Under the pieces are notes generated by a model. The model saw only the letters and a program-made list of their open reading frames with translations. It was not told the DNA's origin and searched no databases. Positions 33,547 to 47,057 of a stretch of DNA of 64,000 nucleotides are shown here, piece after piece; position 1 is the stretch's first letter, and every line of letters begins with the position of its first letter. Source of the DNA: Burkholderia contaminans. GTDB lineage: Bacteria; Pseudomonadota; Gammaproteobacteria; Burkholderiales; Burkholderiaceae. Position numbers and translations under genes: made by a program. Location: contig NZ_CP090643.1 in the NCBI RefSeq assembly GCF_029633825.1, forward strand, positions 310,001-374,000, in the 5' to 3' direction.

Positions 33547-33986
33547 GGGCACCCGTTACCGGGCGCGATCACGGTCGCTGCTGCGATGCTGACCGGGCTT
33601 GCCGGCTACGGCGTGAGTCTGGTGTTCTTTGTGATCGCGCTCCGGCACCTCGGTCAGCCCGGGCCGGCGCCTACTTCTCGGTTGCGCCGCTTTTCGGCGT
33701 GGCGCTATCGTTGCTTATCTGGCCCGAGTGGCCGTCCGTGTCTTTCTGGATCGCCACCGCCATGATGGCGCTGGGCATTTGGCTGCACGTGCGTGAACGA
33801 CATGAGCATGAGCATACGCACGAGCCTCTCGAACACACGCATCGCCATCGCCACGACGAACATCACCAGCACGAGCACGATTTCCCATTCGATAGCGATG
33901 AACCCCATACCCATCCGCATGTGCACCTGCCCATCACCCATTCGCATGCACACTTCCCGGATGTGCATCACCGGCACAAGCATTAG
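33547..33986 (+). pseudogene. Remnant of an EamA/DMT-family transporter (3' end, frameshifted)
   Basis: The first frame gives MLTGLAGYGVSLVFFVIALRHLG. Near 33656 the frame must shift by one base to continue ARAGAYFSVAPLFGVALSLLIWP, a final membrane segment, and a ~60-residue histidine-rich tail (HEHEHTHEPLEHTHRH and DVHHRHKH at the end). The 5' two thirds of the usual gene are missing; the remnant starts ~40 bp after merR. The mer locus probably replaced the rest. Confidence 0.7.
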
Positions 33987-34128
33987 GTGCGCGAACTGAG
34001 CGCGTGCAGAACGGCGAGCAGGCGATATGCCACGGGCAAGACGAAGATTACGAGGTGCCGTTCCCGCTCTGATCAGAGGCTAGAAGCTTCGGCAGTCGGC
34101 GCCGGTGTACCCTTGGGGCATTACAACT

Positions 34129-34273
34129 TGTGTCAAACTCTTTTGTCGCAAAATGCTTCTGCGAATTGTGTTGGATTGCGTTAGTGTCAAGCTCTATTTC
34201 ATCGGTGCCTAACCCAGTAGATCGCTAAGCATCTGATTTTATTGTGCGCGCTGTGTCAAACTCTATTGTTCGT
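34129..34273 (+). repeat. Three spaced GTGTCAA(A/G)CTCT repeats
   Basis: Copies begin near 34129, 34183 and 34252. The first and third share 18 of 21 bases from TGTGTCAAACTCT onward; the second is weaker. They stand in the same orientation, 54 and 69 bp apart, at the junction between the mer/DMT block and the small-gene array. The pattern could be an array of transposase-binding sites at a transposon end or regulator sites. Confidence 0.4.
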
Positions 34274-34711
34274 TCACAGGTGGCACTGGTCGTGTTGAGC
34301 GCGCTGAACGGCGCACACGCGGCGTCGTACGTCGTTGATGTTCAGTTCCCCGGCGACGCGAGCGCAAAGCCCGCCACGCTCAATCTGGAAGACCACGGTA
34401 AGCCACAAACGGCTAAAGGCCCTGGCGGTCTGTTCGTGGCGGTCGCAGCGCAGCAGGCGCTCGAAAGCAAGCTGCTTGAATCGCGGGTTAACGTGATCGA
34501 CAACGTAGGCACCGACCGGGCCGTGGGTACAGGCGTGACAACGCAGTATCTGGCGCTGAACCGACCTCTGACGCTGCAAAGCCCCGCTGGGGCCGGTGTT
34601 GTGTTAACGCTCAAGCAGATTCGCGAATTACCATCGGAAAAAGCAACATGCGCGACTTCTTTGAGAAATGCCTGGTCTTCGGGGGAATCATTCTCGCGTT
34701 CTGGCTGTTGA
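34244..34711 (+). CDS. Possible exported protein at the head of the small-gene array
   Basis: A 155-codon frame. From GTG 34253 it reads like a signal peptide (SQVALVVLSALNGAHA) followed by a polar domain (SYVVDVQFPGDASAKPATL). The 3' end overlaps the next gene by 64 bp in another frame, and the last ~25 codons look non-coding. The real stop may have been lost by a frameshift. No family recognised. Confidence 0.4.
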   Translation: MRAVSNSIVRSQVALVVLSALNGAHAASYVVDVQFPGDASAKPATLNLEDHGKPQTAKGPGGLFVAVAAQQALESKLLESRVNVIDNVGTDRAVGTGVTTQYLALNRPLTLQSPAGAGVVLTLKQIRELPSEKATCATSLRNAWSSGESFSRSGC

Positions 34712-34848
34712 CCTTCGACCGGCGCAGCCCAATGCAAAGGCGCAAGGAGGACGCGCGACAGCGCGCGTGGGATGACGAACGACGACGCAACGACGACGCT
34801 GCTGCCGCTTATCAAGCACAGCACAATCGGCACGATCACCACCGGTAG
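34648..34848 (+). CDS. Small membrane-anchored protein
   Basis: 66 residues. A single N-terminal membrane helix (LVFGGIILAFWLL) is followed by a highly charged tail (RRKEDARQRAWDDERRRNDD) ending in a His-rich HNRHDHHR. It is preceded by GGAAAAA 5 nt upstream of ATG. Unknown function. Confidence 0.55.
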   Translation: MRDFFEKCLVFGGIILAFWLLTFDRRSPMQRRKEDARQRAWDDERRRNDDAAAAYQAQHNRHDHHR

Positions 34849-34865
34849 GAAAACGGGGAACATCA

Positions 34866-35081
34866 ATGCCAACTATTCAAGGAAAGCATGTGAGCAAGAA
34901 AATCTCGGTCGGACTGACTCCGGTCGTCGCGCTCGCGTTTACGGCATTCGGGTTCGGATTTGCAGTAGAAGCCTCGCTGTCGGTTGGTCCGAAGATGACC
35001 GTGCCGCTGCTCTGCTCCATTTTTGCATTCGGCGCGGTGATTGTCGCGGTCGTCCTGAGCGCACGGGAATCCAACGGCTGA
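34866..35081 (+). CDS. Small membrane protein
   Basis: 71 residues with two membrane helices (VVALAFTAFGFGFAVEA and LLCSIFAFGAVIVAVVL). The stop of the previous gene (TAG 34846) overlaps the GGAAAA motif that precedes it. Unknown function. Confidence 0.6.
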   Translation: MPTIQGKHVSKKISVGLTPVVALAFTAFGFGFAVEASLSVGPKMTVPLLCSIFAFGAVIVAVVLSARESNG

Positions 35082-35101
35082 TGCAACGGAAAGCAGAAAG
35101 C

Positions 35102-35284
35102 ATGGATACGAGCAACGAGAAGACCACCGGAACAACGGCAGAGCGGCAAGCGGTTCCTCCACTGAAGGTCTATCTGATTGCGCTCGCGGTTGTCGGCGCG
35201 GGGATCATGATCGTCCACGAAGGGCCGATGCACATCGCAGGCAGAGTGATCACGTCGCTGCAAAAGCTGGTTCTTGGCATCTGA
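35102..35284 (+). CDS. Small membrane protein
   Basis: 60 residues with a polar N-terminus (MDTSNEKTTGTTAERQ) and one membrane helix (VYLIALAVVGAGIMIV). GGAAAG stands upstream; an in-frame ATG at 35081 overlapping the previous stop is an alternative start. Unknown function. Confidence 0.55.
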   Translation: MDTSNEKTTGTTAERQAVPPLKVYLIALAVVGAGIMIVHEGPMHIAGRVITSLQKLVLGI

Positions 35285-35304
35285 GTGTGCATAGGAAAAA
35301 GATC

Positions 35305-35655
35305 ATGGCAAGCGAGCGACTGAATTTGGAGCAGGCTGCGAACGCGATTGGCGATGCCATGTACGCAATGCTTCCGGGTGGCGAGGTTCAGGTTGAGCCT
35401 GCGAGTGACGGCTTTGGCGTAGAGATTGTGCGCATCATTGCCGGGGTAGAGGGGCGCGGCGATGGCACGCGCTCGATGCTGGCCGCAACTGCACTTGCAG
35501 ACCGGCTCGGTGTTTGCGTGACGCTGACCCCGGACGGCAGCTACTACGAAGATGCGGATGCGGCAGCAGCGCGGTTGACCGAGTTCTATTCGCGATTCGG
35601 ATTCCGTCAGCACGCCTTCGGTACGATGCTGCGCGAACCCGTCAACTTCAATTGA
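35305..35655 (+). CDS. Small soluble protein, possibly acetyltransferase-like
   Basis: 116 residues. The C-terminal part (ARLTEFYSRFGFR to FGTMLREPV) resembles the last strand-helix region of GNAT acetyltransferases, but no acetyl-CoA motif (R/Q-x-x-G-x-G/A) is obvious. AGGAAAAA precedes ATG 35305; ATG 35287 is also in frame. Function not assigned. Confidence 0.55.
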   Translation: MASERLNLEQAANAIGDAMYAMLPGGEVQVEPASDGFGVEIVRIIAGVEGRGDGTRSMLAATALADRLGVCVTLTPDGSYYEDADAAAARLTEFYSRFGFRQHAFGTMLREPVNFN

Positions 35656-35675
35656 ACGGAAAACAGGAGCAACAG

Positions 35676-36146
35676 GTGGACCGCATAATTCTTACACCGG
35701 CGATCGTGGCGGACCTCGTTAGCGACTGTCTGGGAACAACAAAGGTCCTTGCGATCGTCGGGGCGTGTCAAACCGGCAAGACGATATCGCTGAAGCAATG
35801 GACGGAAGCATGCTGCGCGCAAGGGACCGCTCGGGTGGCCTACGTGGACTGCCACACTCTCCTGGTCAAGGACAAGGTTGAAGTCGCCTTCGAGGGTCAA
35901 ACGCGAGATGCAGCGGTCGGACACTATCCTTTGTTCGACCTCAACGGCGCCGACATCGTGGTTGTCGATGAGCCGCTACAGAACCGTGAGCTTGTGGGGC
36001 GGTTATTCGCGCATGTCGAACCGAGCGGAAGCGCTTTCATGCACCGGCTGTTGGTGTTGCCACTTCAGACGGAGAAGGCCATCGATCGCTTTGCCATTCC
36101 GCGCTCGGCGGTCCGTGTGTACTCGGTCGCCGGTTTGCCTCTGTAA
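35676..36146 (+). CDS. Compact P-loop NTPase
   Basis: 156 residues, the largest member of the array. Walker A is GACQTGKT at residues 29-36 and Walker B is ADIVVVDEP at ~91-99. Three cysteines lie near the first helix. GTG 35676 follows both the GGAAAA motif and a good AGGAG. It could be an ATPase driving a function shared by the array, or an isolated gene. No family recognised. Confidence 0.65.
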   Translation: MDRIILTPAIVADLVSDCLGTTKVLAIVGACQTGKTISLKQWTEACCAQGTARVAYVDCHTLLVKDKVEVAFEGQTRDAAVGHYPLFDLNGADIVVVDEPLQNRELVGRLFAHVEPSGSAFMHRLLVLPLQTEKAIDRFAIPRSAVRVYSVAGLPL

Positions 36147-36157
36147 CCACGGAAAAC

Positions 36158-36373
36158 ATGAGCCAAAGCACAGAAGCTGGCAAGCTGCCCGGATGGACGG
36201 TGTTGGTGTCGCTGCTCGGGTGCGCAATTGCCCTGATGATCCTGCTGGCGTGCCGACACATCGGCCTGTCGTGGTGGATCGGCGTGCCGGCCGCGATCGC
36301 GGTTACGGTTGCCAGCGTCTTTTTGGACCGCGCCATCGAGCGCAGGTGCGCCCCGTCAGGGCGCACGAACTGA
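36158..36373 (+). CDS. Small membrane protein
   Basis: 71 residues with two membrane helices (WTVLVSLLGCAIALMILLA and WIGVPAAIAVTVASVFL) and a basic C-terminus. GGAAAA lies 11 bp after the previous stop. Unknown function. Confidence 0.6.
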   Translation: MSQSTEAGKLPGWTVLVSLLGCAIALMILLACRHIGLSWWIGVPAAIAVTVASVFLDRAIERRCAPSGRTN

Positions 36374-36386
36374 TCGGAAAATTCGA

Positions 36387-36593
36387 ATGACTCAGATTTG
36401 TGCGGTATGCAGGGCGAGGCGTGGTGCTGGGATTCGCATTTTGGCCGCAATCGTCGTGGAGATCGCCAGTTTTGCGGTTGCTCGCCACTTCGATTCGGAT
36501 CTGATAGCAGCGTTTGGCGCGGCCACCACGATCATGATGCTTTGGTCGCCGTGTCGAGTCCTTTGGCGGCTGAACGAGACGACCTGCAAATAA
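36387..36593 (+). CDS. Small membrane protein with CxxC
   Basis: 68 residues beginning MTQICAVCRARRGAG (one CxxC), with a helix IRILAAIVVEIASFAVA and a second hydrophobic stretch. GGAAAA precedes ATG 36387. Unknown function. Confidence 0.55.
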   Translation: MTQICAVCRARRGAGIRILAAIVVEIASFAVARHFDSDLIAAFGAATTIMMLWSPCRVLWRLNETTCK

Positions 36594-36610
36594 CCACGGA
36601 ACACACGACG

Positions 36611-36826
36611 ATGAAAGGCAAGTACGTATTGTCATGTGGCGCGCTCGGAGGCCGCAGCCCGAAGACAGGGAAGCGCGTCGGTGAACGGCATCGCTGGAGC
36701 GGTGGCGGATGGGGCAAAGGACACTGCGAGTTTTGCTTCAGGACGCTCGATCAGGTTCTCGTCGACGACATACCGAAAGCGGGCTCGACGCAGCACCTTG
36801 AACGTGCGCTGGCCTCAGCCAAATGA
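36611..36826 (+). CDS. Small cysteine-containing protein, zinc-ribbon-like
   Basis: 71 residues, glycine-rich, with LSCGALGG and HCEFCFRTL (CxxC). The motif upstream is the variant GGAACAC. Unknown function; metal binding is possible. Confidence 0.55.
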   Translation: MKGKYVLSCGALGGRSPKTGKRVGERHRWSGGGWGKGHCEFCFRTLDQVLVDDIPKAGSTQHLERALASAK

Positions 36827-36838
36827 CCAAGGAAAAAC

Positions 36839-37090
36839 ATGGACTGCATTGACGAGAGAGCCGTGCCCGAGGGTTGGTCAGTGGAACAGCATTCGGGCTT
36901 CCCGCATGTTGTCGTCCTCTCCCGGCCGGCCGGCGGCTGCGTCAGCATCAACATGAAGAAGCGGATCTTCGGGCCCGGTTACGGTTGCCCGCACGTCGCG
37001 ATGGGCGGTGCACCGACGTATGAGGGACGCGCATGGAAAGCGCGCATTGTGACGGACGCCGTGGCGTGGCTTGATCGCCAGATGGCATGA
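36839..37090 (+). CDS. Small protein of unknown function
   Basis: 83 residues, soluble. It includes FPHVVVLSRPAGGCVSINM and ends AVAWLDRQMA. GGAAAAA is 4 nt before ATG. No family recognised. Confidence 0.6.
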   Translation: MDCIDERAVPEGWSVEQHSGFPHVVVLSRPAGGCVSINMKKRIFGPGYGCPHVAMGGAPTYEGRAWKARIVTDAVAWLDRQMA

Positions 37091-37113
37091 CGCTGCGGAA
37101 AACAGGAAACGTG

Positions 37114-37260
37114 ATGACCTTGAACATCATTCGAACCGTTGAAGTCGTCGGCCTGATCGCGGTGAGCGCTTGGGGCATCCGGGTAGGCAAATGGCGACTT
37201 ACGGTCCTGCCTCTCACGTGCGCCGCTTTGCTGGGTGCGGTGATGGCCGCCGGCTACTAG
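37114..37260 (+). CDS. Very small membrane protein (48 aa)
   Basis: It starts MTLNIIRTVEVVGLIAV and has two hydrophobic stretches ending AALLGAVMAAGY. GGAAAA and a second AGGAAA stand before ATG 37114. It fills the gap between neighbouring array genes exactly, which supports it despite its size. Confidence 0.5.
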   Translation: MTLNIIRTVEVVGLIAVSAWGIRVGKWRLTVLPLTCAALLGAVMAAGY

Positions 37261-37283
37261 GAAAACGCAGCGAGAACGCAACC

Positions 37284-37613
37284 ATGGCAAACGGCTATAC
37301 CGCACTGTACGGGAGTGCTTTCGAGAAGGTCGAGCGGCAGCTACTCGCCGACGGCTACGTTTGCGCATTCGCCTGTACATACGGCGAGCCCGCCGGTCCG
37401 GTTCCGAAGGACCTGGGAAGGACCGGTAAGGAGGGCGGTTGGGAGATGCGGCGCAAACTGAAAGATTGGTCTTCGAAGCATGGGGTCCGCGAGTACAAGA
37501 TCGTCCGCAACACAAGTTATGTCCGCGACTTGCATGGCGACGTCTATGAGCTTTGGGTGAAGCGCTCAGAGATCGACGTGATTGATGCAATCGTGCGAAC
37601 AGCTAGCAATTAG
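37284..37613 (+). CDS. Small soluble protein, parent copy of a duplicated unit
   Basis: 109 residues starting MANGYTALYGSAFEKVERQLLADGY, with a basic middle (MRRKLKDWSSKHGVREYKIVR) and DVYELWVKRSEID near the end. A 35-codon truncated copy of its first part occurs at 40684. TAGGAAAAC precedes it. No family recognised. Confidence 0.65.
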   Translation: MANGYTALYGSAFEKVERQLLADGYVCAFACTYGEPAGPVPKDLGRTGKEGGWEMRRKLKDWSSKHGVREYKIVRNTSYVRDLHGDVYELWVKRSEIDVIDAIVRTASN

Positions 37614-37622
37614 GAAAAAGTC

Positions 37623-37820
37623 ATGAGTATCGAGACACCCGAGAGCCAGTCCGCTGCAGAGGCTGCGGACGATAAGGCGCTAGTTGATCTAGCCTTGAAA
37701 AAGGACTGTCCTGCTAATTGGCTGGCCAAGGCGTGCCGTGTGGGTTGCGTTGCTGCGGGTCGCCGGGAACGTTTGAGGGCCATGCTGTCTCAGCGGCTGG
37801 CCGAATCCGCGCCGAACTGA
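37623..37820 (+). CDS. Small protein of unknown function
   Basis: 65 residues, acidic N-terminus and basic C-terminus (VAAGRRERLRAMLSQRLAES). TAGGAAAAA lies 3 nt before ATG, the tightest example of the motif. Unknown function. Confidence 0.55.
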   Translation: MSIETPESQSAAEAADDKALVDLALKKDCPANWLAKACRVGCVAAGRRERLRAMLSQRLAESAPN

Positions 37821-37832
37821 TCGGAAAACGCA

Positions 37833-38075
37833 ATGAATCTGCTACAGCCAAACAAACAGTGGATCGAACTCGCCGACGCCGCGATCCGAAAGGTCAATCC
37901 GAGTGCCGCCGAAGTCGTACAAGCGACGCGTGGTTTCGCTGTGCTGGGGCGTGAAGGCGTGCTTACCGCGCGTCTCTCCGATGGAACCCAGTGGCGGATC
38001 GACGGGCAGGACGTGCGACAGCTTACCGCCGACGAAATCGCCGCTCGAGCTCGGCTCCACGAGTCGTTTCAGTGA
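37833..38075 (+). CDS. Small protein, parent copy of a duplicated unit
   Basis: 80 residues starting MNLLQPNKQWIELADAAIRKV, with DGTQWRIDGQDVRQL in the middle. A degenerate copy lies at 40465-40654. Stop and following motif (tgagacgacGGAAA) are the same in both copies, so the duplication included the intergenic unit. Confidence 0.65.
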   Translation: MNLLQPNKQWIELADAAIRKVNPSAAEVVQATRGFAVLGREGVLTARLSDGTQWRIDGQDVRQLTADEIAARARLHESFQ

Positions 38076-38111
38076 GACGACGGAAAATTACTGTAACGAA
38101 AGGGCATCCCC

Positions 38112-38396
38112 ATGAGTTCACTGAAAGAAGTCTGCATCACCGCTGCAAAGAAGGTTTTTGACAACCGCGCCGATGTCGAAGAATTCGCGCAAGGTTATCT
38201 CGAATCCGCAATTCATCGTTTCGCCAAGGATACTAGCGAAATACCGCCCAACGTCCTGGCAAACATCGCAGAATGCGCAGCATGGTTCATTTACGACGAA
38301 AGCATCGAGAAGCAGATTTCGATTCCTCTGCCCGCGCGGCGAGACATGGTCGCAGCGCATCTCCGTGAGCGGTTCCCGCTGTACGCTGCAAGCTAA
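38112..38396 (+). CDS. Small helical protein
   Basis: 94 residues, predicted mainly helical (CITAAKKVFDNRADVEEFAQ; NVLANIAECAAWFIYDE). The gap before it is longer than usual (36 bp), with GGAAAA right after the stop. Unknown function. Confidence 0.6.
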   Translation: MSSLKEVCITAAKKVFDNRADVEEFAQGYLESAIHRFAKDTSEIPPNVLANIAECAAWFIYDESIEKQISIPLPARRDMVAAHLRERFPLYAAS

Positions 38397-38409
38397 CGCC
38401 GGGAAATTC

Positions 38410-38670
38410 ATGGCGACGATTCCACGACCCCGCAAGCCGCGTTATGTCGTTCGCGATAGCGCAGGGCGAGCGTTGCGCGAGACCGATTCGAAGCTGACCG
38501 CCTGGTGGGTCTGGTTCAAAAATCGACGCGATGGCGCAATCGCACATGACCGCCTTAGCTGGATCGAGGACGAAAGAAGCTGGTTGCGTTGCGGCGTTGT
38601 TACAAGCGATGGCGGCGCCGGAGCCGATTGGATGGCCGAGTACGATCTAGAAGTCGTCAAGGTTGATTGA
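38410..38670 (+). CDS. Small protein of unknown function
   Basis: 86 residues, basic N-terminus (IPRPRKPRYVVRDSAGRAL), tryptophan-rich middle (LTAWWVWFKNRRDG). GGGAAA is 5 nt before ATG 38410. Unknown function. Confidence 0.55.
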   Translation: MATIPRPRKPRYVVRDSAGRALRETDSKLTAWWVWFKNRRDGAIAHDRLSWIEDERSWLRCGVVTSDGGAGADWMAEYDLEVVKVD

Positions 38671-38686
38671 GACGTATCGGAAAACA

Positions 38687-38917
38687 ATGGAACAGAGCAA
38701 CTGGCGCGAGTTTGTCGCGGGCGAAGAATGGTTCTCCGGACGGGCGCTGTGGTTATGGGCGCCATCTTGGGAAGCCCCTCGCTTGGCGACAGCGGATCGC
38801 GGAGACGATTTCGAGTGGTTCTACGCGAGCGGACCCAAGCTTGAGGACGCTGGGTGGGAGTTTCCCACGCACTGCTGCGACCCAACGCCGCCCGCACCGC
38901 CGGCAGCCTGCAAATAG
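38687..38917 (+). CDS. Small tryptophan-rich protein
   Basis: 76 residues with many aromatics (ALWLWAPSWEAP) and a C-terminal CCDPTPPAPPAACK. GGAAAA is 3 nt before ATG. Unknown function. Confidence 0.55.
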   Translation: MEQSNWREFVAGEEWFSGRALWLWAPSWEAPRLATADRGDDFEWFYASGPKLEDAGWEFPTHCCDPTPPAPPAACK

Positions 38918-38933
38918 AACGGAAAATTACTCC

Positions 38934-39257
38934 ATGAAGAAACTTGCTGCGCTACTCGCCTGCCTCGCGCCACTTGCGGCAACGGCGCAAGTGCAATGGG
39001 CGATCCCTGGCGTCACGGTGCCTGCGCCGGTAGATCGCTCGCCCCCCGCGTCGGCGGTTGACGCAGACGGCGCGTACATCGAATACAAGGCCATGTTGTC
39101 GGACGGAAAGGCCGCGACTGAACTAGGGCGTTATTCGAGCGCGTCTGATTGCTTTCATCGGCTTGAACGTGCATCTGCTTCGCCCGAATTTACCAGCGCA
39201 ATCCGTCAGCATCCAATTCTCGAATTGGTCTGCGTCGCGACGCGCCAGAAGGCTTAG
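38934..39257 (+). CDS. Small exported protein
   Basis: 107 residues with a clear signal peptide (MKKLAALLACLAPLAATA, cleavage before Q). Two cysteines in the mature part (SDCFHRL, ELVCVA) could form a disulfide. GGAAAA lies upstream. It is the only clear secreted protein inside the array. Confidence 0.6.
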   Translation: MKKLAALLACLAPLAATAQVQWAIPGVTVPAPVDRSPPASAVDADGAYIEYKAMLSDGKAATELGRYSSASDCFHRLERASASPEFTSAIRQHPILELVCVATRQKA

Positions 39258-39268
39258 GAAAATAGACG

Positions 39269-39586
39269 ATGACAAATACGGATCAAACTGGCTCAACGCC
39301 GCACGACAGCATGTCGCGGAGCGAACTGTTTTCTCGCGCTGTTTGCGTGGTTGCCACAGGCGCTATCTGGATTCTCACGGTGTGCGGCATCGTGATAGTG
39401 GGGCTTGCTGTCGCAACGTCGCTGGTCGGCCAACTGAACGTTCTGGCGATGCTCTGTATTGCGCCGGTCGCTGTCTCGACGTGCCTGGGTTTCGGCGTGT
39501 TGTCGAACGGCATTCATAGCTGGCTTCTCTCGCTGTTCGGCATGGAGCCGATTCAGCAGGCCGACCGTGTGTTACCTGCGGATTGA
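39269..39586 (+). CDS. Small membrane protein
   Basis: 105 residues with two or three membrane helices (AIWILTVCGIVIVGLAV; LAMLCIAPVAVSTCLGFGVL). GGAAAA follows the previous TAG at once. Unknown function. Confidence 0.6.
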   Translation: MTNTDQTGSTPHDSMSRSELFSRAVCVVATGAIWILTVCGIVIVGLAVATSLVGQLNVLAMLCIAPVAVSTCLGFGVLSNGIHSWLLSLFGMEPIQQADRVLPAD

Positions 39587-39606
39587 ATCGGAAAATAGGA
39601 TCGGTC

Positions 39607-39852
39607 ATGGACGAAGAAGACAATCGGACGTTTAAGCAGCGGTGGCTGTCTTTGACAGTCGGGGTCTGGTGTTGGCTAGCACCGGTGGCGGTGATTGTTT
39701 GCGCGGTTGCCAAACTGGCATCGGTCGAGGGCGCAGAGTCGATGCCGTGGGGCGCAATCATCGTTGGCCCTGCGATCGCGGTTGCGCCTAGCATCGCGAT
39801 ATTCTGCGCATGGCTGACGTTCATGACACATCGCTGGGACTGGCACGACTAG
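39607..39852 (+). CDS. Small membrane protein
   Basis: 81 residues with two membrane helices (WCWLAPVAVIVCAVAKLA; WGAIIVGPAIAVAPSIAIF) and a polar N-terminus MDEEDNRTFKQR. GGAAAA lies upstream. Unknown function. Confidence 0.6.
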   Translation: MDEEDNRTFKQRWLSLTVGVWCWLAPVAVIVCAVAKLASVEGAESMPWGAIIVGPAIAVAPSIAIFCAWLTFMTHRWDWHD

Positions 39853-39922
39853 GAAAATTCGCCGCCATGCGCGGCACTAGAGAACTTGGTGACGCCTAAT
39901 TTAGATGGGAACGGGAGGGGCG

Positions 39923-40225
39923 ATGAACACGGACGGAATGAAGCTCCCGCGTGGGGTCAATGCGCGATTCATTTCCGGTATGCTCGAATGCTGGCAATAC
40001 CAGGACCACGATGCTTCGTACCACGCGCGCTGGGACTCGAACGTCAATGGCATGCGCATGGTGTTCGGCGATTATCCGCCTTCCCTTTTTAGCAAGGATT
40101 CCGGTCTGAATCAGCATGGTCATACGATAGAGCAATGGCTGGAGATCGGTCGCAATATCGCCCTTGGCTTCTTCGGAGCCGCCGAAGTGGTTGCGCGCGC
40201 ACGCGGCGTCACTGGTAAAAAATAG
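39923..40225 (+). CDS. Small soluble protein
   Basis: 100 residues, no membrane segment, with ECWQYQDHDASYHARWD and GHTIEQWLEIGRNIALG. The previous TAG is followed by GGAAAA, but the ATG is 70 bp on with its own GGGAGG. Unknown function. Confidence 0.55.
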   Translation: MNTDGMKLPRGVNARFISGMLECWQYQDHDASYHARWDSNVNGMRMVFGDYPPSLFSKDSGLNQHGHTIEQWLEIGRNIALGFFGAAEVVARARGVTGKK

Positions 40226-40238
40226 AACGGGCAATTCG

Positions 40239-40451
40239 ATGCCGCACGACCTTGCTATTTGGGTGATCTACGACAGCCCGATCGATCTGCCGGGCCGATT
40301 CGTTGCGCGGAAATGGCTGCTTGATCGGCCGACCAGCGAGTTGCTGCAGGGCAAGACACTTACCGAGTTGCGCGGCAAGCTGCCGGCCGGATTGACCCGC
40401 CTTCCGCGCGATCCGAGCGACGACGCGAAGATCGTAGAGTCGTGGATCTAA
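40239..40451 (+). CDS. Small protein of unknown function
   Basis: 70 residues starting MPHDLAIWVIYDSPIDL and ending DDAKIVESWI. The motif is degenerate (GGGCAA). No family recognised. Confidence 0.55.
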   Translation: MPHDLAIWVIYDSPIDLPGRFVARKWLLDRPTSELLQGKTLTELRGKLPAGLTRLPRDPSDDAKIVESWI

Positions 40452-40464
40452 CGAGAAAAACACG

Positions 40465-40654
40465 ATGAATCCGCTGTGACCAAACAGACTATGGATCGAA
40501 CAGGCTGACCTCGCGATCCGAAGGGTCGACCCGACGGCTTCGGAAGGCGCGCCTCGCCGATGGAACCGAGTGGCGGATCGACGGGCAGGACGTGCAGCAA
40601 CTTACCGCCGACGATATCGCCGCTCGAGCGCGGCTCCGCGAATCGTTTCAGTGA
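40465..40654 (+). pseudogene. Degenerate copy of the small gene at 37833
   Basis: It begins ATGAATCCGCTGTGA, already stopped after four codons, then continues with CCAAACAGACTATGGATCGA and a deletion of ~50 bp in the middle. The 3' half (GGCGGATCGACGGGCAGGAC onwards) is nearly identical to the parent down to the stop and the following tgagacgacGGAAA. It is non-functional. Confidence 0.75.
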
Positions 40655-40683
40655 GACGACGGAAATCACGCGAGGGGCTGATC

Positions 40684-40791
40684 ATGGAAAACGGCGAACC
40701 CGCGCTCCACGGGAGTGCTTTCGAGAAGGTCGAGCGTCACCTGCTCGCGGACGGCTACGTCGACTTCCACTGGCGATGCTCCAGCGACTGA
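40684..40791 (+). pseudogene. Truncated copy of the small gene at 37284
   Basis: 35 codons. The first ~27 (MENGEPALHGSAFEKVERHL, then LADGYVD) match the start of the 37284 product closely; the frame then ends at CSSD. The rest of the parent gene is missing at the junction with the end of dnaE2. It may still be translated as a short peptide. Confidence 0.7.
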
Positions 40792-40799
40792 TCAGGGTT

Positions 40800-43700
40800 T
40801 CAACAAAACTCCCGTGACGTTGTCGGAAGCGCACCGAGCAACTCGGTTCTGTCGACGAGTTTGCTCGCGATCAGGTGTCGCACTTTCCCTTCGGCCTGCC
40901 ATACGCCGTATACCGCCAGCAGCGCAGCGCCGAGCGCCTCCTTCCGAAACTTCTCAAGCAAGCCGGGCCAGAGGATCACGTTCACCTGGCCTGTCTCGTC
41001 CTCGAGCGTCATGAAGAGCACGCCGTTCGCCGTTCCCGGTCGCTGTCGTACCGTGACCAATCCGCACGCGCGCGCGAGCTGCCCGCTTCGCAGGGTTGCC
41101 AGCTGCTCGGCCGACTGCAGGTGATCCAGCGCGAGGCGATCACGCAGCAGCGCCAGCGGATGCCTGCCGAGCGTGAAGCCCATCGCGCGATAGTCCGTCA
41201 CGATCTCGTGGCCCTCAGATGCTTGAGGCAACGCCGGCACCGCGTCGTCACGTTCGGTGCCGCGCAGCAGATCTCGATCAGGAACGGCAGCGGCGGCCAG
41301 CCAGAGCGCGTCGCGTCGGTTATCGCCGGCGAGCGAGCGAAGTGCGTTCGCGCCCGCGAGCACCTGCAGGTCGTGCCGATCAAGCTGCGCGCGGCGCGCG
41401 AGGTCCGAGATATCGACGAATGGCCGCGCTGCGCGTGCGAGCTCGATGCGGCCGGCGACGTCCTCGCGCATGCCGCGCAGCAGCGAGAAGCCGAGGCGCA
41501 CGGGCGCCGACGTGGTCGGCCCTTCGATCGCAGAATCCCACGTGCTCACGTTGACGTCGACGGGCAGCACTTCAACGCCGCGGCGCTTCGCGTCCTGCAG
41601 GAGCTGCGACGGTGTGTAGAAGCCCATCGGTTGGCTGTTGAGCAGTGCGGCTAGGAAGACGGCTGGTTCGTGTCGGCGCAGCCAGGCGCTCGAGTAAACG
41701 AGCAGCGCGAAGCTGGCCGCGTGGCTCTCGGGGAAACCGTATTCACCGAAGCCCTTAATCTGCGCGAAGATCGACTCGGCAAACTCGCGATCGTAGCCGC
41801 GCTCGAGCATGCCGTTCACGAGGCGTTCGTGGTACGGCTCGAGCCCACCCTTGCGCTTCCATGCGGCCATCGCGCGGCGCAGCTGGTCGGCCTCGCCTGC
41901 GGAAAAGCCGGCCGCCAGCATCGCGACCTGCATCACCTGCTCCTGGAAGATCGGCACGCCGAGCGTGCGCGCCAGCGCCCTCTCCATGCCTTCCGACGGA
42001 AACGTGACGGGCTCTAGTCCCTGGCGTCGGCGGAGAAACGGGTGCACCATGCCGCCTTGCACCGGGCCCGGCCGCACGATCGCGACTTCGATCACCAGGT
42101 CGTAGAAGCACTGCGGCCGCAGACGCGGCAGCATCGACATCTGCGCGCGCGACTCGACTTGGAACACGCCCATGCTGTCGCCGTCGCACAGCATGTCGTA
42201 GGTCGCCTTGTCCTCGGCCGGGATGTCCTGCAGCTCGAATGTCTCGCCGCGCTTCTCCGAGATCATGTCGAGCGCGCGGCGCACCATCGAAAGCATGCCG
42301 AGCGCCAGGACGTCGATTTTCAGGATGCCGAGCGCCTCGATATCGTCCTTGTCCCACTGGATGATCGAGCGATCTTCCATCGCTGCGTTCTCGACTGGCA
42401 CGAGGCGCGTGAGCTTGCTGCGGCTGATCACGAAGCCGCCCGAGTGCTGCGACAGGTGCCGTGGATAGCCGAGCAGCTGCGCGGCAAATCCGGCCCACTG
42501 CTGATTCAGCGGCGCTTCGGGATCGAGGCCAGCCTCGGCAAATCGCTGCAGCAGATCGGCGCGCGAATCGAACCACCTATGCTGCTTCGCGACGCGGTCC
42601 ACGATCGCCGGATCCACGCCGAGCGCCTTGCCGGCTTCCCGCAACGCGCTGCGCGGCCGGTACGTCGTGACGGCGGCCGTCAGCGCTGCGCGATCGCGAC
42701 CGTACTTGCGGTAGATGTACTGCATGACCTCTTCGCGACGCTGATGCTCGAAATCGACGTCGATGTCCGGCGGCTCGTTGCGCTCCTTGGAGATGAATCG
42801 TTCGAACAGCATCGATTGCCGCGACGGATCGACTTCGGTCACGCCGAGGCAGTAGCAAACGGACGAGTTCGCAGCCGAGCCGCGTCCCTGGCACAAGATG
42901 CCTTGCTCGCGCGCGAACTGCACGATGTCGTAGACGGTCAGAAAATACGCCTCGTACTTCAGGTCGGCGATCAGTTGCAGTTCGTGCTCGATCTGCGCCT
43001 GAACGTCGATCGGGATGCCGGCAGGGAAGCGCCGCCGCGCACCGATGTAGGTCTGCTCGCGCAGGTATGTCGTCGCGTCGGTGCCGGCCGGTACCAGTTC
43101 GTCGGGATACTCGTACTTCAGGTCGTCGAGGGAAAACGTACAGAGCTGCGCGACGCGTACTGTTTCCTCAAGCGCGCCGGCGGGATAGATGTTGGCGAGC
43201 CGCAGCCGCGATCGCAGGTGACGCTCCGCATTCGGTGCGAGCTCATACCCGCACTCCGATACCGGTCGGCCGACCCGGATTCCGGTCAGCACGTCCTGCA
43301 GCGGCTTGCGCGACCGGACGTGCATGAGCGGCCAGCTGGTGGCCACCACCGGCACGCCGTGGCGCGCGGCGACGCGCTCGACCACGCCGCGGTGGATGTC
43401 ATCCATCGCGCGTGCGTGTAGCGTCAGCGCGACCCATGCGCGATCGCCGAACACGCGCGTTAACCATTCGACCTGCGCGTCGAGGCGCCGCTCGTTGGCG
43501 GGGAAGTCGGGCGACAGGATCGCCAGGCAATCTGGCAAACCGCGCAGGTGGCTGTGCGGCACTTCCGGGTGTTCGAGATCGAGCCGCCCCAGCCGGTACG
43601 TGCCTTTCTTGCCCCGCATGCGGCCGAGCGAAATGAATTCGCAGAGGTTGCCGTAACCGACGCGGTTCGTCGCGAGCGCGGTGAAGGCGAGCGCGGGCAA

Positions 43701-43949
43701 GCCATCGGCGGCCGTCAGCCGGAAGTGCGAGCCGACGATCAGCGGCACGTTCGCCGCCTTCGCTTCGACGTGCGCGCGCACGACGCCGGCGAGCGAGCAT
43801 TCGTCGGTGATCGCGATCGCGCTGTAGCCGAGCTGGGCCGCGCGCGCGACGTATTCCTCCGCGCGCGATGCACCGTGCAGGAAGGAGAAGTCGCTTGCGA
43901 CTTGGAGTTCAGCGTAGGCGGGCAGGGCGCCGAAATTGCCGGCGTTCAT
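40800..43949 (-). CDS. dnaE2: Error-prone DNA polymerase DnaE2 (ImuC)
   Basis: 1049 residues. The N-terminal PHP domain starts YAELQVASDFSFLHGASRAEE. The polymerase core has GRGSAANSSVCYCLGVT and PPDIDVDFEHQRREEVMQY, which supply the catalytic aspartates, and IKGFGEYGFPESHAASFA. A C-terminal OB fold follows. DnaE2 extends past lesions together with ImuB. It lies 6 bp after imuB and ends beside the small-gene array. It appears complete. Confidence 0.95.
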   Translation of the reverse strand: MNAGNFGALPAYAELQVASDFSFLHGASRAEEYVARAAQLGYSAIAITDECSLAGVVRAHVEAKAANVPLIVGSHFRLTAADGLPALAFTALATNRVGYGNLCEFISLGRMRGKKGTYRLGRLDLEHPEVPHSHLRGLPDCLAILSPDFPANERRLDAQVEWLTRVFGDRAWVALTLHARAMDDIHRGVVERVAARHGVPVVATSWPLMHVRSRKPLQDVLTGIRVGRPVSECGYELAPNAERHLRSRLRLANIYPAGALEETVRVAQLCTFSLDDLKYEYPDELVPAGTDATTYLREQTYIGARRRFPAGIPIDVQAQIEHELQLIADLKYEAYFLTVYDIVQFAREQGILCQGRGSAANSSVCYCLGVTEVDPSRQSMLFERFISKERNEPPDIDVDFEHQRREEVMQYIYRKYGRDRAALTAAVTTYRPRSALREAGKALGVDPAIVDRVAKQHRWFDSRADLLQRFAEAGLDPEAPLNQQWAGFAAQLLGYPRHLSQHSGGFVISRSKLTRLVPVENAAMEDRSIIQWDKDDIEALGILKIDVLALGMLSMVRRALDMISEKRGETFELQDIPAEDKATYDMLCDGDSMGVFQVESRAQMSMLPRLRPQCFYDLVIEVAIVRPGPVQGGMVHPFLRRRQGLEPVTFPSEGMERALARTLGVPIFQEQVMQVAMLAAGFSAGEADQLRRAMAAWKRKGGLEPYHERLVNGMLERGYDREFAESIFAQIKGFGEYGFPESHAASFALLVYSSAWLRRHEPAVFLAALLNSQPMGFYTPSQLLQDAKRRGVEVLPVDVNVSTWDSAIEGPTTSAPVRLGFSLLRGMREDVAGRIELARAARPFVDISDLARRAQLDRHDLQVLAGANALRSLAGDNRRDALWLAAAAVPDRDLLRGTERDDAVPALPQASEGHEIVTDYRAMGFTLGRHPLALLRDRLALDHLQSAEQLATLRSGQLARACGLVTVRQRPGTANGVLFMTLEDETGQVNVILWPGLLEKFRKEALGAALLAVYGVWQAEGKVRHLIASKLVDRTELLGALPTTSREFC

Positions 43950-43955
43950 GGTGGA

Positions 43956-45434
43956 TCAACCGAACAGGCCGTGCAGGAAGAAGCGCGCTTCGCTCTCGTC
44001 GCTGGCCGTCGGCCGCTCCTTGTAAATCCAGTAGCAGATACCGTTGTCGTCCTCGGCGACGAAGTAGTCGCGCGTCACGGTCTGCCCATCCTGCCAGCCG
44101 CCTTCGATGCGCTCGCCGGGCGATACCATGCGCAGCGGCGTGCCGTAGAACGGCCGATGCTGGCGCGTGAGCAGCGGCACAGGCTTGGCAAGCAGCCAGG
44201 CCGGGCGCGGCAGATCCGCCGGCAGCGGCGAGGGCTTCGGCGCGTCGCGCATCGGCACCCATCGGGCGGCCGGCTCCGGACGGTAGTCGGCCATGGGAGC
44301 CGGGACGAGCACGTTCTCGGCGCCGAGCCGTGCGGTCAGCAGTTCGAGCAGCCGCGCGTGATCCTGCGGCGTACCGCCGGGGTCCGGAAACAGCGAGTCG
44401 CTCGGCGCGGCCGCTTCCTGCACGCTACGGGCGACCAGGCGCACCGCGATCACGGGCCCGGCGAGCTCGACGTGGCCGAGCCGTTCCTTGACGAGCCGCG
44501 TGAGGTGTTCCTCGAAGCGGGTCGGTGCACCTAACGCAATTTCGATCTCGGTCGGCGCGATCGCGTCCCGCCCGCGCTCGTGCTCGAGCAGCAGGGCAAA
44601 CGCGGCGACGTCCAGATGCTTCGCCGTGAGCCAGCCGGTCAGCTGCAGGATCAACCGGCGCGCGACGAACAGCAGCGCCTCGACGTGCTCGACGCGATCC
44701 ATCAGTTCGACGCGCGTGTCGAACGACGGCGGCATTTCGAGCCAGTCGTAGGCAGCCGGCGCGGCGCCGGTGACCTGGTCGAGCCAGTCGAGCAGATGCG
44801 TGCCGCAGCGCTTTTTCAGCCCTGCGCGCGGCAAGCGCTGCAGATCGGCCAGTGTTTCGCAGCCGAGATCCTCAAACCAGTTCGCGTAGCGCCGAGCGTC
44901 CGGCGCCACGACGAGCGGCACGCGCGCGAGTGCGCGGCGCAGCGATCGCGCGGACAGCGCGAGGCCCCCGCGCAGGCCGCGGGCAACCATCCACGCGGCC
45001 GGGCCCGACGACGCGACGGATATCGCCGCGGTAACGCCGAACGACGCGCCGACGTCGCGCACGCGCTGGCGCAGCGCACGGATGCCGTGGAAGAGGCGCA
45101 GGCTCGCGGTCACGTCGAGGACCACCACGGCTTCGTCGGCGTCGACGACGCTCGGTGTGAACTGGAGAAGTGCATAGGCAACGCCGAGCACGAGCTCGCG
45201 CTCGCGCGCGGCGTCGCGCTCGCGGATCTGCGCGTCCGGCGCGAGGGACAGCACGCCACCGCGGCGCATGCCGGCGACCACGCCGAGCGCACGCGCGGCG
45301 CGATCGAGCGCCACGACGCGGCCGCCGTCGAGCACGACGAGCCCGCGCCCATCGTCAGGCGACGGCGCCGGCGATCGCGGCCGGAACACTTCGAGGTTGA
45401 GGTGCGGCAGATGCACGCCGATCCAAACTTGCAT
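43956..45434 (-). CDS. imuB: ImuB, inactive Y-family polymerase-like protein
   Basis: 492 residues. An N-terminal Y-family polymerase fold (LWIGVHLPHLNLEVF-type start; VVLDGGRVVALD, VVLDVTASLRLF) lacks the usual pair of catalytic acids, as expected for ImuB. The C-terminal region includes PLLTRQHRPFYGTPLRM and ends near HGLFG. ImuB links ImuA and DnaE2 to the sliding clamp. The start overlaps the imuA 3' end by 80 bp. Confidence 0.92.
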   Translation of the reverse strand: MQVWIGVHLPHLNLEVFRPRSPAPSPDDGRGLVVLDGGRVVALDRAARALGVVAGMRRGGVLSLAPDAQIRERDAARERELVLGVAYALLQFTPSVVDADEAVVVLDVTASLRLFHGIRALRQRVRDVGASFGVTAAISVASSGPAAWMVARGLRGGLALSARSLRRALARVPLVVAPDARRYANWFEDLGCETLADLQRLPRAGLKKRCGTHLLDWLDQVTGAAPAAYDWLEMPPSFDTRVELMDRVEHVEALLFVARRLILQLTGWLTAKHLDVAAFALLLEHERGRDAIAPTEIEIALGAPTRFEEHLTRLVKERLGHVELAGPVIAVRLVARSVQEAAAPSDSLFPDPGGTPQDHARLLELLTARLGAENVLVPAPMADYRPEPAARWVPMRDAPKPSPLPADLPRPAWLLAKPVPLLTRQHRPFYGTPLRMVSPGERIEGGWQDGQTVTRDYFVAEDDNGICYWIYKERPTASDESEARFFLHGLFG

Positions 45435-46071
45435 GGCGGTTCAACAAAATCGGCGAGGGTGACAAGGGAACGAACAGCGGCGTATCACGTGCCGGCCCGC
45501 GGCGCTTCACGAACGTGACGTCGATGCCGTCGCGCTTGGGCGCCAGCGCGAGCCGCAAGGGTGCCGGCGACGCGTCGCGCGCGGCGGCCGCTGGGCGGAA
45601 GAGATAGAAAAGCGCCTGGCCACTCTGCGCAGCCAGATTCAGCCGCCGCAATGCGTCCGCACGGACGTGCTGCTGCCAAAGCAGCACGGCAGCGCACGTG
45701 CCGGCACGCAACGCCTGCTCAGCGGCCCACAGCGCGTCGGCCGTGCGCGGCGCCGGCAGCGTTACGAACCCGGACGGGTCGATGCCCCAGTACGCGAGCG
45801 CCAGCGGTTGCAGCGCATGCGGTGGCTGGATCAGCATGACCGGCTTGCCGGCCGCGCGCTCGAGCACCGGCGCCAGCAGCCGAAGCTCGCCGATCCCAGG
45901 CTGTGGCGCGAGCAATTCGATCAGCGCGCTGGCCGGCCAGCCGCCGCCGGGCAGTTCGGCCGACAGCTCGGGATGACCGGTGTCGACGCCGCGCGTGCTC
46001 GATCGGGGCAGGCTCGATGCCTTCCAGAGACTCGGATGTATCGCTTCCGGATGCGCGAGGGCGGGGTTCAT
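45355..46071 (-). CDS. imuA: ImuA, SOS mutagenesis accessory protein
   Basis: 238 residues of the RecA/SulA-like ImuA family, with HPELSAELPGGGWPASALIELL, PVMLIQPPHALQPLALAYWGI and ALWAAEQALRAGTCAAVLLW. It works with ImuB and DnaE2 in SOS-induced translesion synthesis. A consensus LexA box lies 20 bp upstream of the start. First gene of the leftward operon. Confidence 0.9.
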   Translation of the reverse strand: MNPALAHPEAIHPSLWKASSLPRSSTRGVDTGHPELSAELPGGGWPASALIELLAPQPGIGELRLLAPVLERAAGKPVMLIQPPHALQPLALAYWGIDPSGFVTLPAPRTADALWAAEQALRAGTCAAVLLWQQHVRADALRRLNLAAQSGQALFYLFRPAAAARDASPAPLRLALAPKRDGIDVTFVKRRGPARDTPLFVPLSPSPILLNRHASLDRRASAAPQPRSVPAAIAGAVA

Positions 46072-46090
46072 GGGGTCAGTTTCTCAAGCA

Positions 46091-46106
46091 CTGTATGTTT
46101 ATACAG
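46091..46106 (-). promoter_or_regulatory. LexA (SOS) box of the imuA-imuB-dnaE2 operon
   Basis: The 16-bp sequence CTGTATGTTTATACAG is a full CTG-N10-CAG palindrome of the E. coli/beta-proteobacterial type, 20 bp before imuA. It is strong evidence for SOS control. Confidence 0.9.
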
Positions 46107-46145
46107 TATATGACAGAGATAACCGCGTCTCCAACCCCCTGCCGT

Positions 46146-47057
46146 TTACGCCGCCAGCTGGTGCTCGTAGTAGGGCCGCTCGCGATCGGCGAGTATCTCG
46201 CGCAGCTGCGCGCGCTGGGACGGGCCCGGAGCGAGCCAAGCGTCCACGTTCGACGACTTGATGGGGACGATGCACCTATCGTGGCCAGCTGCCGCCACTT
46301 CCGGCGGTGGGTCGTCGGTGATCGCCGCAAACGACCAGAGGTCGTCTGCGCCCGGGATCTCGGTGCGCGTCCACAAGCACGCCACCTGCATGTGTTGCGG
46401 CGGTGTTGGATCGAAGCGAAGCACGACGTTCTGGCCGTCCCGCTTCACGTTTTCGAAGAAAGCGTTGACGAGCACGAGGCCATGCGTGAAGCCGAAAACC
46501 TTCCGCCATGCGGTACTGAGCGAGTCCGCCCGCGCGTTATAAGTTGCAGGCTTCTGTTTTTCGTCCGCTTCGGTCCACCCTGGTATGCGGCATCGATACC
46601 GCATCGGTACGACCAGGCGCTTGCCTTCATGCTCGATCAGCACGGGTGCATACCAGCCGGGGAAGATCCGCGAATCGCGCTCCTGCAGGTCCTGCCGGCG
46701 GAGATCGTCGAGCCCGCGCGTCGCGGCAGTGATCTTGTCGGTCGCGATCCGGACGTCCTCGCTCGCCTTCTTCGTGATCTTCTCGGTCAGCTTCTTCTCA
46801 GCGGCCGCCAGCCGCGTCCGCTGCTCGAACAGTTCGGTCTCCAGCTTCTGTGTTCGCTGGTTTCGATACGCGGCGATCGCCGCAGTGATCTCGTCGTCAA
46901 CACCAGCGAATGCGGCGTCGACCGCTTTCGGGATCTTGATGTCGGCCCCGGACGCGCGCGCGTTGAAGATGCTCCTGAACGTCTCGATGTCCATGTCGGC
47001 ACCATAGCGCCGCACGTACTCGCGATAGTTGGCTTGGATCTTGGCGGAATAGCACAT
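46146..47057 (-). CDS. yedK: SOS response-associated peptidase (YedK/HMCES, SRAP)
   Basis: 303 residues. Cys2 follows the initiator Met (MCYSAKIQ), the residue that bonds covalently to abasic sites in single-stranded DNA. TYNARADSL and AAAGHDRCIVPI are the other active-site blocks. A ~70-residue charged helical insertion (residues ~55-125) makes it longer than E. coli YedK (222 aa). GGAG lies 8 nt before ATG. It is leftward, 40 bp from the LexA box end, and protects abasic lesions during the same SOS response as imuABC. Confidence 0.92.
   Translation of the reverse strand: MCYSAKIQANYREYVRRYGADMDIETFRSIFNARASGADIKIPKAVDAAFAGVDDEITAAIAAYRNQRTQKLETELFEQRTRLAAAEKKLTEKITKKASEDVRIATDKITAATRGLDDLRRQDLQERDSRIFPGWYAPVLIEHEGKRLVVPMRYRCRIPGWTEADEKQKPATYNARADSLSTAWRKVFGFTHGLVLVNAFFENVKRDGQNVVLRFDPTPPQHMQVACLWTRTEIPGADDLWSFAAITDDPPPEVAAAGHDRCIVPIKSSNVDAWLAPGPSQRAQLREILADRERPYYEHQLAA

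Follow-up and report, generated by a model that had tools for sequence, protein, structure and literature searches.

What kind of genetic element sets small genes almost end to end in one direction and places the same six bases, GGAAAA, between nearly all of them? The question is raised by a 64,000-nucleotide stretch of Burkholderia contaminans DNA, referred to here as the window (positions 310001-374000 of contig C4, which measures 391,552 base pairs (bp) in a genome of 9.4 Mb and seven contigs). Between positions 34648 and 40791 of the window, 22 small rightward open reading frames (ORFs) of 35-156 codons were accepted, the last few of which are degenerate. At the junctions of this array, exact GGAAAA is found between stop and start codons in 16/21 cases, a sequence with at most one mismatch in 20/21, and one with two mismatches in 1/21; a preliminary description had reported the dense array and its recurring motif, both of which hold, and had counted 19 of 23 junctions, a difference arising only from the counting of degenerate ORFs at the right end. 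The hexamer occurs 18 times on the forward strand of the array and never on the reverse strand; 500 dinucleotide shuffles of the array gave a mean of 2.5 copies and a maximum of 9, and the remaining 57,830 bp of the window hold 6 copies on the forward and 13 on the reverse strand. One of the 18 copies, at 40686, falls within the beginning of a coding sequence and outside any junction. Among 14 other close same-strand junctions of the window, picked from our own ORF calls, none contains GGAAAA.

Our preferred explanation, to which a probability of roughly two-thirds is given, is that the locus is a mobile gene-cassette array, integron-like but not an integron, in which single genes recombine at GGAAAA and the enzyme responsible is a short tyrosine recombinase designated family A. 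A cassette would usually comprise one small gene with GGAAAA at its front and a short non-coding tail reaching to the next GGAAAA, and cassettes would enter, leave, and swap by site-specific recombination with the crossover inside these 6 bp. A platform would comprise, in order, an inverted copy of the site (mostly TTTTCCGAGGA), approximately 100 bp with an inverted repeat, the family A gene, often a toxin-antitoxin pair or a regulator, and the cassettes. The family A recombinase would cut GGAAAA either in cis or in trans from another plasmid in the cell, the array would probably be read from a promoter on the platform side, and GGAAAA may double as a weak ribosome binding site. In the window, such an array would store mostly small proteins of no assigned role.

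Recombination at GGAAAA is well supported by the comparison of shared blocks among related loci (referred to by L numbers). Blocks of 60-3000 bp were compared in 41 segments, chosen largely as array-like (26 of the 49 family A loci); L001 and L041 are one plasmid with an overlap of approximately 380 bp and thus contribute one trivial pair both here and in the neighbour comparison below. In the 148 unique shared blocks, GGAAAA is the commonest shared hexamer, at 25/136 starts and 54/141 ends, and GGAAA lies within 3 bp of the edge in both copies at 38/136 starts (0.06 expected) and 64/141 ends (0.13 expected). As a control, the same hexamer analysis on DNA upstream of recombinases gave 0/88 starts and 1/87 ends (both strands). 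At the anchored starts, identity is approximately 24% before GGAAAA and approximately 70% after it, and at the anchored ends it is approximately 83% before GGAAAA and approximately 24% from the second base after it. These steps indicate that, at such edges, the tail from stop codon to GGAAAA belongs to the upstream gene and that the partner changes within six bases. The earlier proposal that units were gained as cassettes of a gene plus a GGAAAA leader is supported by these edges and by the shuffled order described below, with the amendment that GGAAAA, which is indeed part of the cassette, is not merely a leader: it would be the crossover, and the tail behind the stop codon travels with the gene.

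Furthermore, cassettes are found singly elsewhere. When the whole array was compared by blastn with 72,556 plasmid records, 87 records matched, and among the 40 listed only the identical plasmid, the 396-kb B. contaminans NZ_CP073663.1, part of which is 100% identical to the window array, covers more than 9% of the query. Cassette 13 (265 bases from GGAAAA to GGAAAA, 37823..38087, with ORF 37833-38075) is matched in 12 records, 11 from Burkholderia and one from Cupriavidus. At least 98% of the block is matched in 11/12 records, at 83-95% identity in other Burkholderia plasmids, and the matches reach to within 4 bases of both ends in 10/11 records other than the identical plasmid; the match in Cupriavidus is partial (72%). 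The surroundings that were read are mostly other strings of small genes joined by GGAAAA; in two B. contaminans plasmids the cassette lies near secretion genes, and one record is unannotated.

Exact site-specific gain, loss, and reordering of cassettes are shown, as joins in aligned sequences, by several sets of plasmids. In B. glumae p3_BGR21S (L004), a stretch of 2,741 bp running from GGAAAA to GGAAAA is absent from L159, L160, L161, and L045, and the flanks match at 98.1-99.6% identity, sharing precisely the six bases GGAAAA as overlap in the empty form. This insert contains a 90% identical relative (L004:5426-5804) of window cassette 4 (35294..35663; sites at 35294 and 35658, ORF 35305-35655, 116 amino acids (aa)). 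In B. glumae BGR1, plasmid bglu_1p (L162) has the block order X-Y-Z and bglu_4p (L159) the order X-Z-Y, with identities of 97% for X, 99.2% for Y, and 99.9% for Z (two site-to-site intervals) and with all block edges but one at GGAAAA; in L004, X is followed by neither Z nor Y. Between L001 and L002, from B. ambifaria and B. anthina, a further difference involves two blocks that adjoin in one and lie 4 kb apart in the other, the join being GGAAAACG. Exact indels amount to 14 rows, six of them in arrays, of which four represent one event with a GGAAAA overlap, one (L001/L002) has the overlap GAAAACG, and one (L159/L004) has a 35-bp overlap containing GGAAAACTGGAAAAGC; the remaining eight have other overlaps and concern transposon or recombinase genes and their surroundings. 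Across 39 loci, 402 site-to-site intervals fall into 377 clusters, and 229/402 hold one ORF (median 288 bp), as in a single-gene, one-orientation array. The preliminary description had held that a fixed gene order, together with a motif frequency not exceeding that of ordinary operons, would make the locus a plain operon. Neither was found: homologous cassettes with known neighbours in these 39 loci have the same left neighbour in 1/20 pairs and the same right neighbour in 1/15, the order is swapped in the two BGR1 plasmids, and the motif is concentrated in arrays and at shared-block edges.

In related plasmids, the array starts after a short, codirectional tyrosine recombinase gene in the platform loci that were read, and two families of this gene are distinguished. 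Family A (L002 type) has 238 aa, with a family range of approximately 220-240 aa, and keeps the catalytic set R-K-HxxR-H-Y: in 31 sequences both R are invariant and K, both H, and Y are conserved in at least 90%, row P0227 being without Tyr. Family B (L034 type) has 219 aa and an incomplete catalytic set, in which the first Arg is replaced by Met, the His of HxxR by Met or Leu, and Tyr by Leu; in 27 sequences M41 and M42 are conserved in at least 90%, and R171 and L203 are invariant. Both families match the catalytic part of Xer models, and among PDB chains the profile of family A finds XerD, XerA, and IntI4; an N-terminal core-binding domain is apparently absent from family A. An AlphaFold model of family A reached a mean predicted local distance difference test (pLDDT) score of 60 and was not used for a fold search.

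A pattern-based scan of a species-genome collection gave 49 family A loci, downstream of which 417 kb hold 383 forward and 90 reverse copies of GGAAAA, while 398 kb upstream hold 107 and 135, respectively. Densities and inverted-site counts refer to 42 loci, namely 31 of those 49 and 11 plasmid loci, the dropped ones being mostly short or partial; in the first 4 kb downstream, the density is 1.1-1.85 per kb. The forward excess is clear in Burkholderia, Paraburkholderia, Caballeronia, Trinickia, Cupriavidus, Massilia, and Rugamonas and less marked in Aromatoleum and Pandoraea, and several loci show none; on a family B plasmid of P. aeruginosa, forward copies outnumber reverse ones by 11 to 2. 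In 299 family-level genomes, the family A query found 36 and the family B query 25 at E<=1e-20, with cross-matches and broken and partial genes included. The family A gene seems uncommon outside its taxonomic family, since an order-wide sample yielded it in 2/300 genomes at E<=1e-30. Family B (L034:7101-7757), annotated as an integrase, is carried by many plasmids of Burkholderia and related bacteria, and relatives approximately 50% identical occur on Pseudomonas, Aeromonas, and Halomonas plasmids. In Alicycliphilus pALIDE01 (L158:9984-17519), a family B gene is followed by 23 small genes whose site has drifted to AAGGAAAG, and WP_013516294.1 is encoded twice in that array, each time with a leader of more than 90 bases.

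Toxin-antitoxin pairs are often the first genes to follow the recombinase, and by eye a promoter-like sequence precedes the first gene. The motif CCGATAAC (or CCGATAT), also seen by eye, stands before the first gene, 40-150 bp after the recombinase, in L002, L043, L045, L112, L115, and L131; the L160/L161 indel, in which the family B gene is lost, has an end next to this motif, which is possibly a regulatory or attachment site. SOS control through a LexA box upstream of the recombinase is not claimed, because CTG-N10-CAG was present in 1/29 loci.

In the loci compared, cassette units are seen to be bounded by GGAAAA and to be associated with a platform, the left side of which carries the site in inverted form. 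This inverted GGAAAA (TTTTCC), mostly TTTTCCGAGGA, is located 95-140 bp before the recombinase start in 33/42 loci of both families, and in eleven other windows of equal width TTTTCC is present in 0-2 of the 42 loci. When flanks were compared in the 33 loci having it, L002 (family A) and L034 and L031 (family B) were 82-90% identical over the 40 bp to the left of the inverted site and 32-45% identical to the right, which looks like an exchange of platforms at the inverted site. In L030, where neither recombinase gene was found, part of the left flank and TTTTCC are kept (by eye), and in L009 TTTTCCGAGGAAATG is kept and the recombinase gene is absent. The interval from the inverted site to the gene contains a strongly conserved inverted repeat, which reads CTCGTAAC..TTMCGAG and varies little across 18 aligned loci (mean column identity 76%); in another clade it reads CTCTGAAT..ATTCAGAG. 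RNAalifold predicted 14 pairs in this leader repeat, two of them with changes on both sides, and the repeat is taken as a predicted binding site or leader. In L002, L041, L107, L111, L115, and others, this repeat is located, together with a hairpin that has a T-run, less than approximately 80 bp before the family A start.

The site itself has, over 493 contexts, the consensus A[T/A][A/C]GGAAAA[C/T], and clear information is confined to approximately -7 to +7 around the core, both overall and, apart from weak outliers, within every clade set. The distance from stop codon to site is mostly -1 (TAGGAAAA) or 2-8, and that from site to start codon mostly 2-7. The base after the core is C in Burkholderia and G in Cupriavidus, and the form AAGGAAAG occurs in two Comamonadaceae loci.

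Several observations weigh against the proposed cassette system. Most shared-block edges do not fall at an exact GGAAAA pair (111/136 starts, 87/141 ends), for which variant sites and divergence account in part. The left edge of X in bglu_4p reads GGAGAA, and the clearest insertion and the order swap both come from one species, B. glumae. The inverted site is absent in 9/42 loci, including L160 and L158 (family B). L031 and L034 also differ from each other to the right of it (32%), and since both belong to family B, the step there is not only one between families A and B. L160 and L161 differ by a 3.2-kb indel that contains the family B gene, and this indel is not bounded by GGAAAA. Family B lacks the first catalytic Arg, the HxxR His, and the Tyr, yet some of its arrays look equally fresh (L034 15:0, L044 17:2). 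Several family A loci are without an array (e.g., L108 1:4, L133 3:6, L140 3:3), and the Pandoraea loci are weak. In the genome of the window itself, neither family was found at E<=1e-20 (10/17 and 9/26 first-look candidates scored). Finally, the site is without the inverted-repeat arms usual for tyrosine recombinases, an armless form that would fit a recombinase without a core-binding domain.

Alternatively, the cassettes would recombine at GGAAAA by means of another enzyme, be it the XerC/XerD pair of the host, one of the large DUF3701 integrases, or some unlinked recombinase, with families A and B as regulators or passengers of the plasmid region; we regard this as the most serious alternative, albeit an unlikely one. 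Fresh arrays are headed by family B despite its missing catalytic residues, arrays occur without a nearby family A or B gene (the window, L004 with a 33-aa remnant, L009, and L030), and DUF3701 integrases are present near some arrays (e.g., L004, L009, L042, L107, L112, L142). By contrast, the stretches fetched for other arrays (e.g., L002, L034, L111, L127) showed no DUF3701 integrase, and the window's own genome has 12 matches to DUF3701 tyrosine recombinases, spread across chromosomes and plasmids; because several of these have the same scores on chromosomes and plasmids, they are probably transposons, and DUF3701 was set aside as the array enzyme. Moreover, a family A or B gene stands at the 5' end wherever array and platform co-occur, and in those 33/42 loci its distance from the inverted site is nearly constant; in BGR1, where the fetched stretch of bglu_4p has only a family B remnant, a family A gene is present on bglu_1p.

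Far less probable is illegitimate or RecA-dependent exchange at GGAAAA microhomology, in which selection would keep the joins that preserve a ribosome binding site. Six identical bases suffice for rare illegitimate joins, and selection for translation would bias them; joins anywhere between stop and start codon would be equally workable, however, and the anchored edges show otherwise. In addition, the inverted copy has no gene to translate, yet it lies at a near-fixed distance from the recombinase and marks the identity step in three related plasmids. Slightly less credible still is a plain operon of small genes with a common Shine-Dalgarno-like sequence and ordinary gene turnover, to which the position of GGAAAA 2-7 bases upstream of many start codons and the drift of the Comamonadaceae site to AAGGAAAG, a sequence resembling a ribosome binding site, would lend themselves. 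The 3' edges of shared blocks, however, pass the stop codon, the tail, and the GGAAAA of the next gene before they end; presence and absence are exact with a 6-bp overlap, the order is not conserved, and the 14 other close junctions of the window are free of the hexamer.

The window array can be read along the forward strand as follows. Cassette 1 (34636..34853) has its GGAAAA at 34636 and a membrane-like 66-aa ORF at 34648-34848; the GGAAAA of cassettes 2-3 (34848..35293) at 34848 overlaps the TAG stop, and their ORFs, 34866-35081 and 35102-35284, are separated by the variant GGAAAG at approximately 35088. After cassette 4, described above, cassette 5 (35658..36156) carries the ORF 35676-36146 (156 aa), to which Cupriavidus DNA is 69-75% identical; this is the P-loop NTPase first suggested, and it shows a Walker-A-like GACQTGKT, but all four Pfam matches are under the curated cut-offs. 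It is followed by cassette 6 (36151..36381; ORF 36158-36373, 71 aa, membrane-like), cassettes 7-8 (36376..36830; ORFs 36387-36593 and 36611-36826, variant GGAACA at approximately 36598), cassette 9 (36831..37102; ORF 36839-37090), cassette 10 (37097..37265; ORF 37114-37260, 48 aa, membrane-like), cassette 11 (37260..37618; ORF 37284-37613), and cassette 12 (37613..37828; ORF 37623-37820). Beyond cassette 13 lie cassettes 14-15 (38082..38684; ORFs 38112-38396 and 38410-38670, variant GGGAAA/GGAAAT at approximately 38401), cassette 16 (38679..38926; ORF 38687-38917), cassette 17 (38921..39262; ORF 38934-39257, by eye with a signal-peptide-like N-terminus), cassette 18 (39257..39595; ORF 39269-39586, membrane-like), and cassette 19 (39590..39857; ORF 39607-39852). 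Several membrane proteins and one exported protein had been predicted, and by eye several array proteins do look membrane-spanning and one has a signal-peptide-like start. A non-coding hairpin element, GGAAAATTCGCCGCC..GCGGCAC (39852..39922), precedes a 100-aa ORF (39923..40225) with a decayed site after it (two mismatches), a 70-aa ORF (40239..40451) with a variant site after it, a degenerate second copy of cassette 13 (40467..40670), and a degenerate second copy of the start of cassette 11 (40684..40791, 86% identical to the first part of that cassette), where the array ends against dnaE2. The gene-less hairpin recurs in other arrays (window 39852-39890; L001:1264 and 9829; L002:6516; L043:11775), often between two GGAAAA 26-27 bp apart (GGAAAATTcGCCGGCGCGGCCGGCACtGGAAAAC), and resembles a cassette without a gene.

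Outside the array, dnaE2 and the genes for DNA polymerase Y, imuA, and an SOS-response-associated peptidase occupy 40800..47057 on the reverse strand; imuA or dnaE2 also lies beside the arrays of L030, L031, L034, L044, L115, and L144, some of which likewise adjoin a gene for an SOS-response-associated peptidase. A first array part is located at C4:304338-307864 and shares a 267-bp stretch, 98% identical (C4:305262), with cassette 19. The DNA splitting the array runs from approximately 17920 to 18873 of L038 (C4, approximately 307920) on to window position 34264; repeats of TGTGTCAAACTCT lie at window 34129 and 34252, with the inverted form at approximately 17920-17985 of L038, mer genes are annotated in L006, and one ORF of the element has, by eye, what we take to be a likeness to TnsA. 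This DNA is a putative Tn7-like transposon with a mercury-resistance operon, inserted in the array. The inverted repeats found upstream of recombinases were searched for in the same genome and not found, and the pattern TGANCGGAAAANNNATG, which is too strict, had no match there. Given that the genome yielded no gene of either family at E<=1e-20 and that the second copies of cassettes 13 and 11 are decayed, the window array is best described, by analogy with integron arrays without an integrase, as an orphan without a platform that is partly decaying at its right end. On a plasmid-sized contig of the genome (C5:145780-147749, L036), another small group of forward GGAAAA copies lies near a DUF3701 integrase.

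The contents of the cassettes have no single function. A function scan covered 104 proteins from the 229 single-ORF cassettes of several loci, nearly all of at least 75 aa, and at E<=1e-3 the matches spread over 28 Pfam families (including SieB superinfection exclusion, Abi_C, DUF4145, and DUF5677), of which a single one was hit by two members; PADLOC matched seven models with one member each, including AbiJ, and PHROGs gave 21. Because some cassettes elsewhere resemble abortive-infection and superinfection-exclusion genes, a cassette store for plasmid defence or counter-defence is plausible.

In a wider sense, we consider the chances somewhat better than even that such loci represent a second class of cassette capture besides integrons, with a catalytic-domain-only recombinase and a 6-bp GGAAAA core for each cassette that, when inverted, forms the platform boundary, platform and cassettes thus being exchanged by one reaction. 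The core would drift with host lineage (GGAAAAC, GGAAAAG, GGAAAG), and the class would be distributed on plasmids of Burkholderiaceae and Oxalobacteraceae as well as of some other groups, one Pseudomonas plasmid among them. No account of such arrays was found in the open PubMed Central literature by title and start of abstract, and novelty is claimed with respect to that library only. For the storage of single genes in arrays open to recombination, integrons are the classic bacterial example; if the present reading is true, such stockpiling originated or diverged on more than one occasion, here with a different site and a far smaller recombinase. It would also explain strings of small genes of no assigned role on many environmental plasmids and provide a catalogue of plasmid-borne small proteins, some likely acting in defence or counter-defence, and it raises the question of how a recombinase without a core-binding domain acts on a 6-bp site.

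Among known systems, integrons are close in organization, for they too have one-orientation arrays of single genes beside a tyrosine recombinase, with diverse proteins and toxin-antitoxin genes, orphan arrays without a recombinase, and cassettes gained and lost precisely at a short core. A degenerate classical integron (IntI plus attC) is nevertheless highly improbable in spite of its one-orientation single-gene cassettes beside a tyrosine recombinase, because against the integron integrase model TIGR02249, with its cut-off of 265 bits, family A scores 39 and family B 23.6 and 25, there is no conserved sequence past the short core, whereas attC sites fold, span tens of bases, and have a GTT core, and the recombinase gene is codirectional with the array. 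Rfam, with no family at E<=0.5 over 33900-41000, likewise gave no attC, a dedicated attC model not having been run. Unlike the integron integrase, which is divergent from its array with attI between the two, the present recombinase of approximately 220-240 aa, equivalent to the catalytic part of Xer/IntI models, is encoded by a gene pointing into the array, GGAAAA has no conserved arms, and a near-fixed inverted site upstream of the gene bounds the platform. IntI4 is the sole PDB chain matched over most of family A, and the alignment begins at IntI4 residue 105. In the pdif modules of Acinetobacter plasmids, genes are exchanged by XerC/XerD at sites of approximately 28 bp with two Xer arms; both systems swap plasmid gene modules by tyrosine recombinases at short sites, whereas here the site is 6 bp with weak flanks and no conserved block of approximately 28 bp around it, and all sites within an array have one orientation. 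Finally, the elements in rulB of Pseudomonas plasmids that their authors term integron-like (ILEs) share with the present arrays a plasmid-borne XerD-like recombinase next to ultraviolet (UV)/SOS polymerase genes; they are whole elements of 9-16 kb that insert at a single position in rulB with a GAT repeat of 3 bp, carry several recombinases, and are not built, as the GGAAAA arrays are, of single-gene cassettes (PMC4542609).

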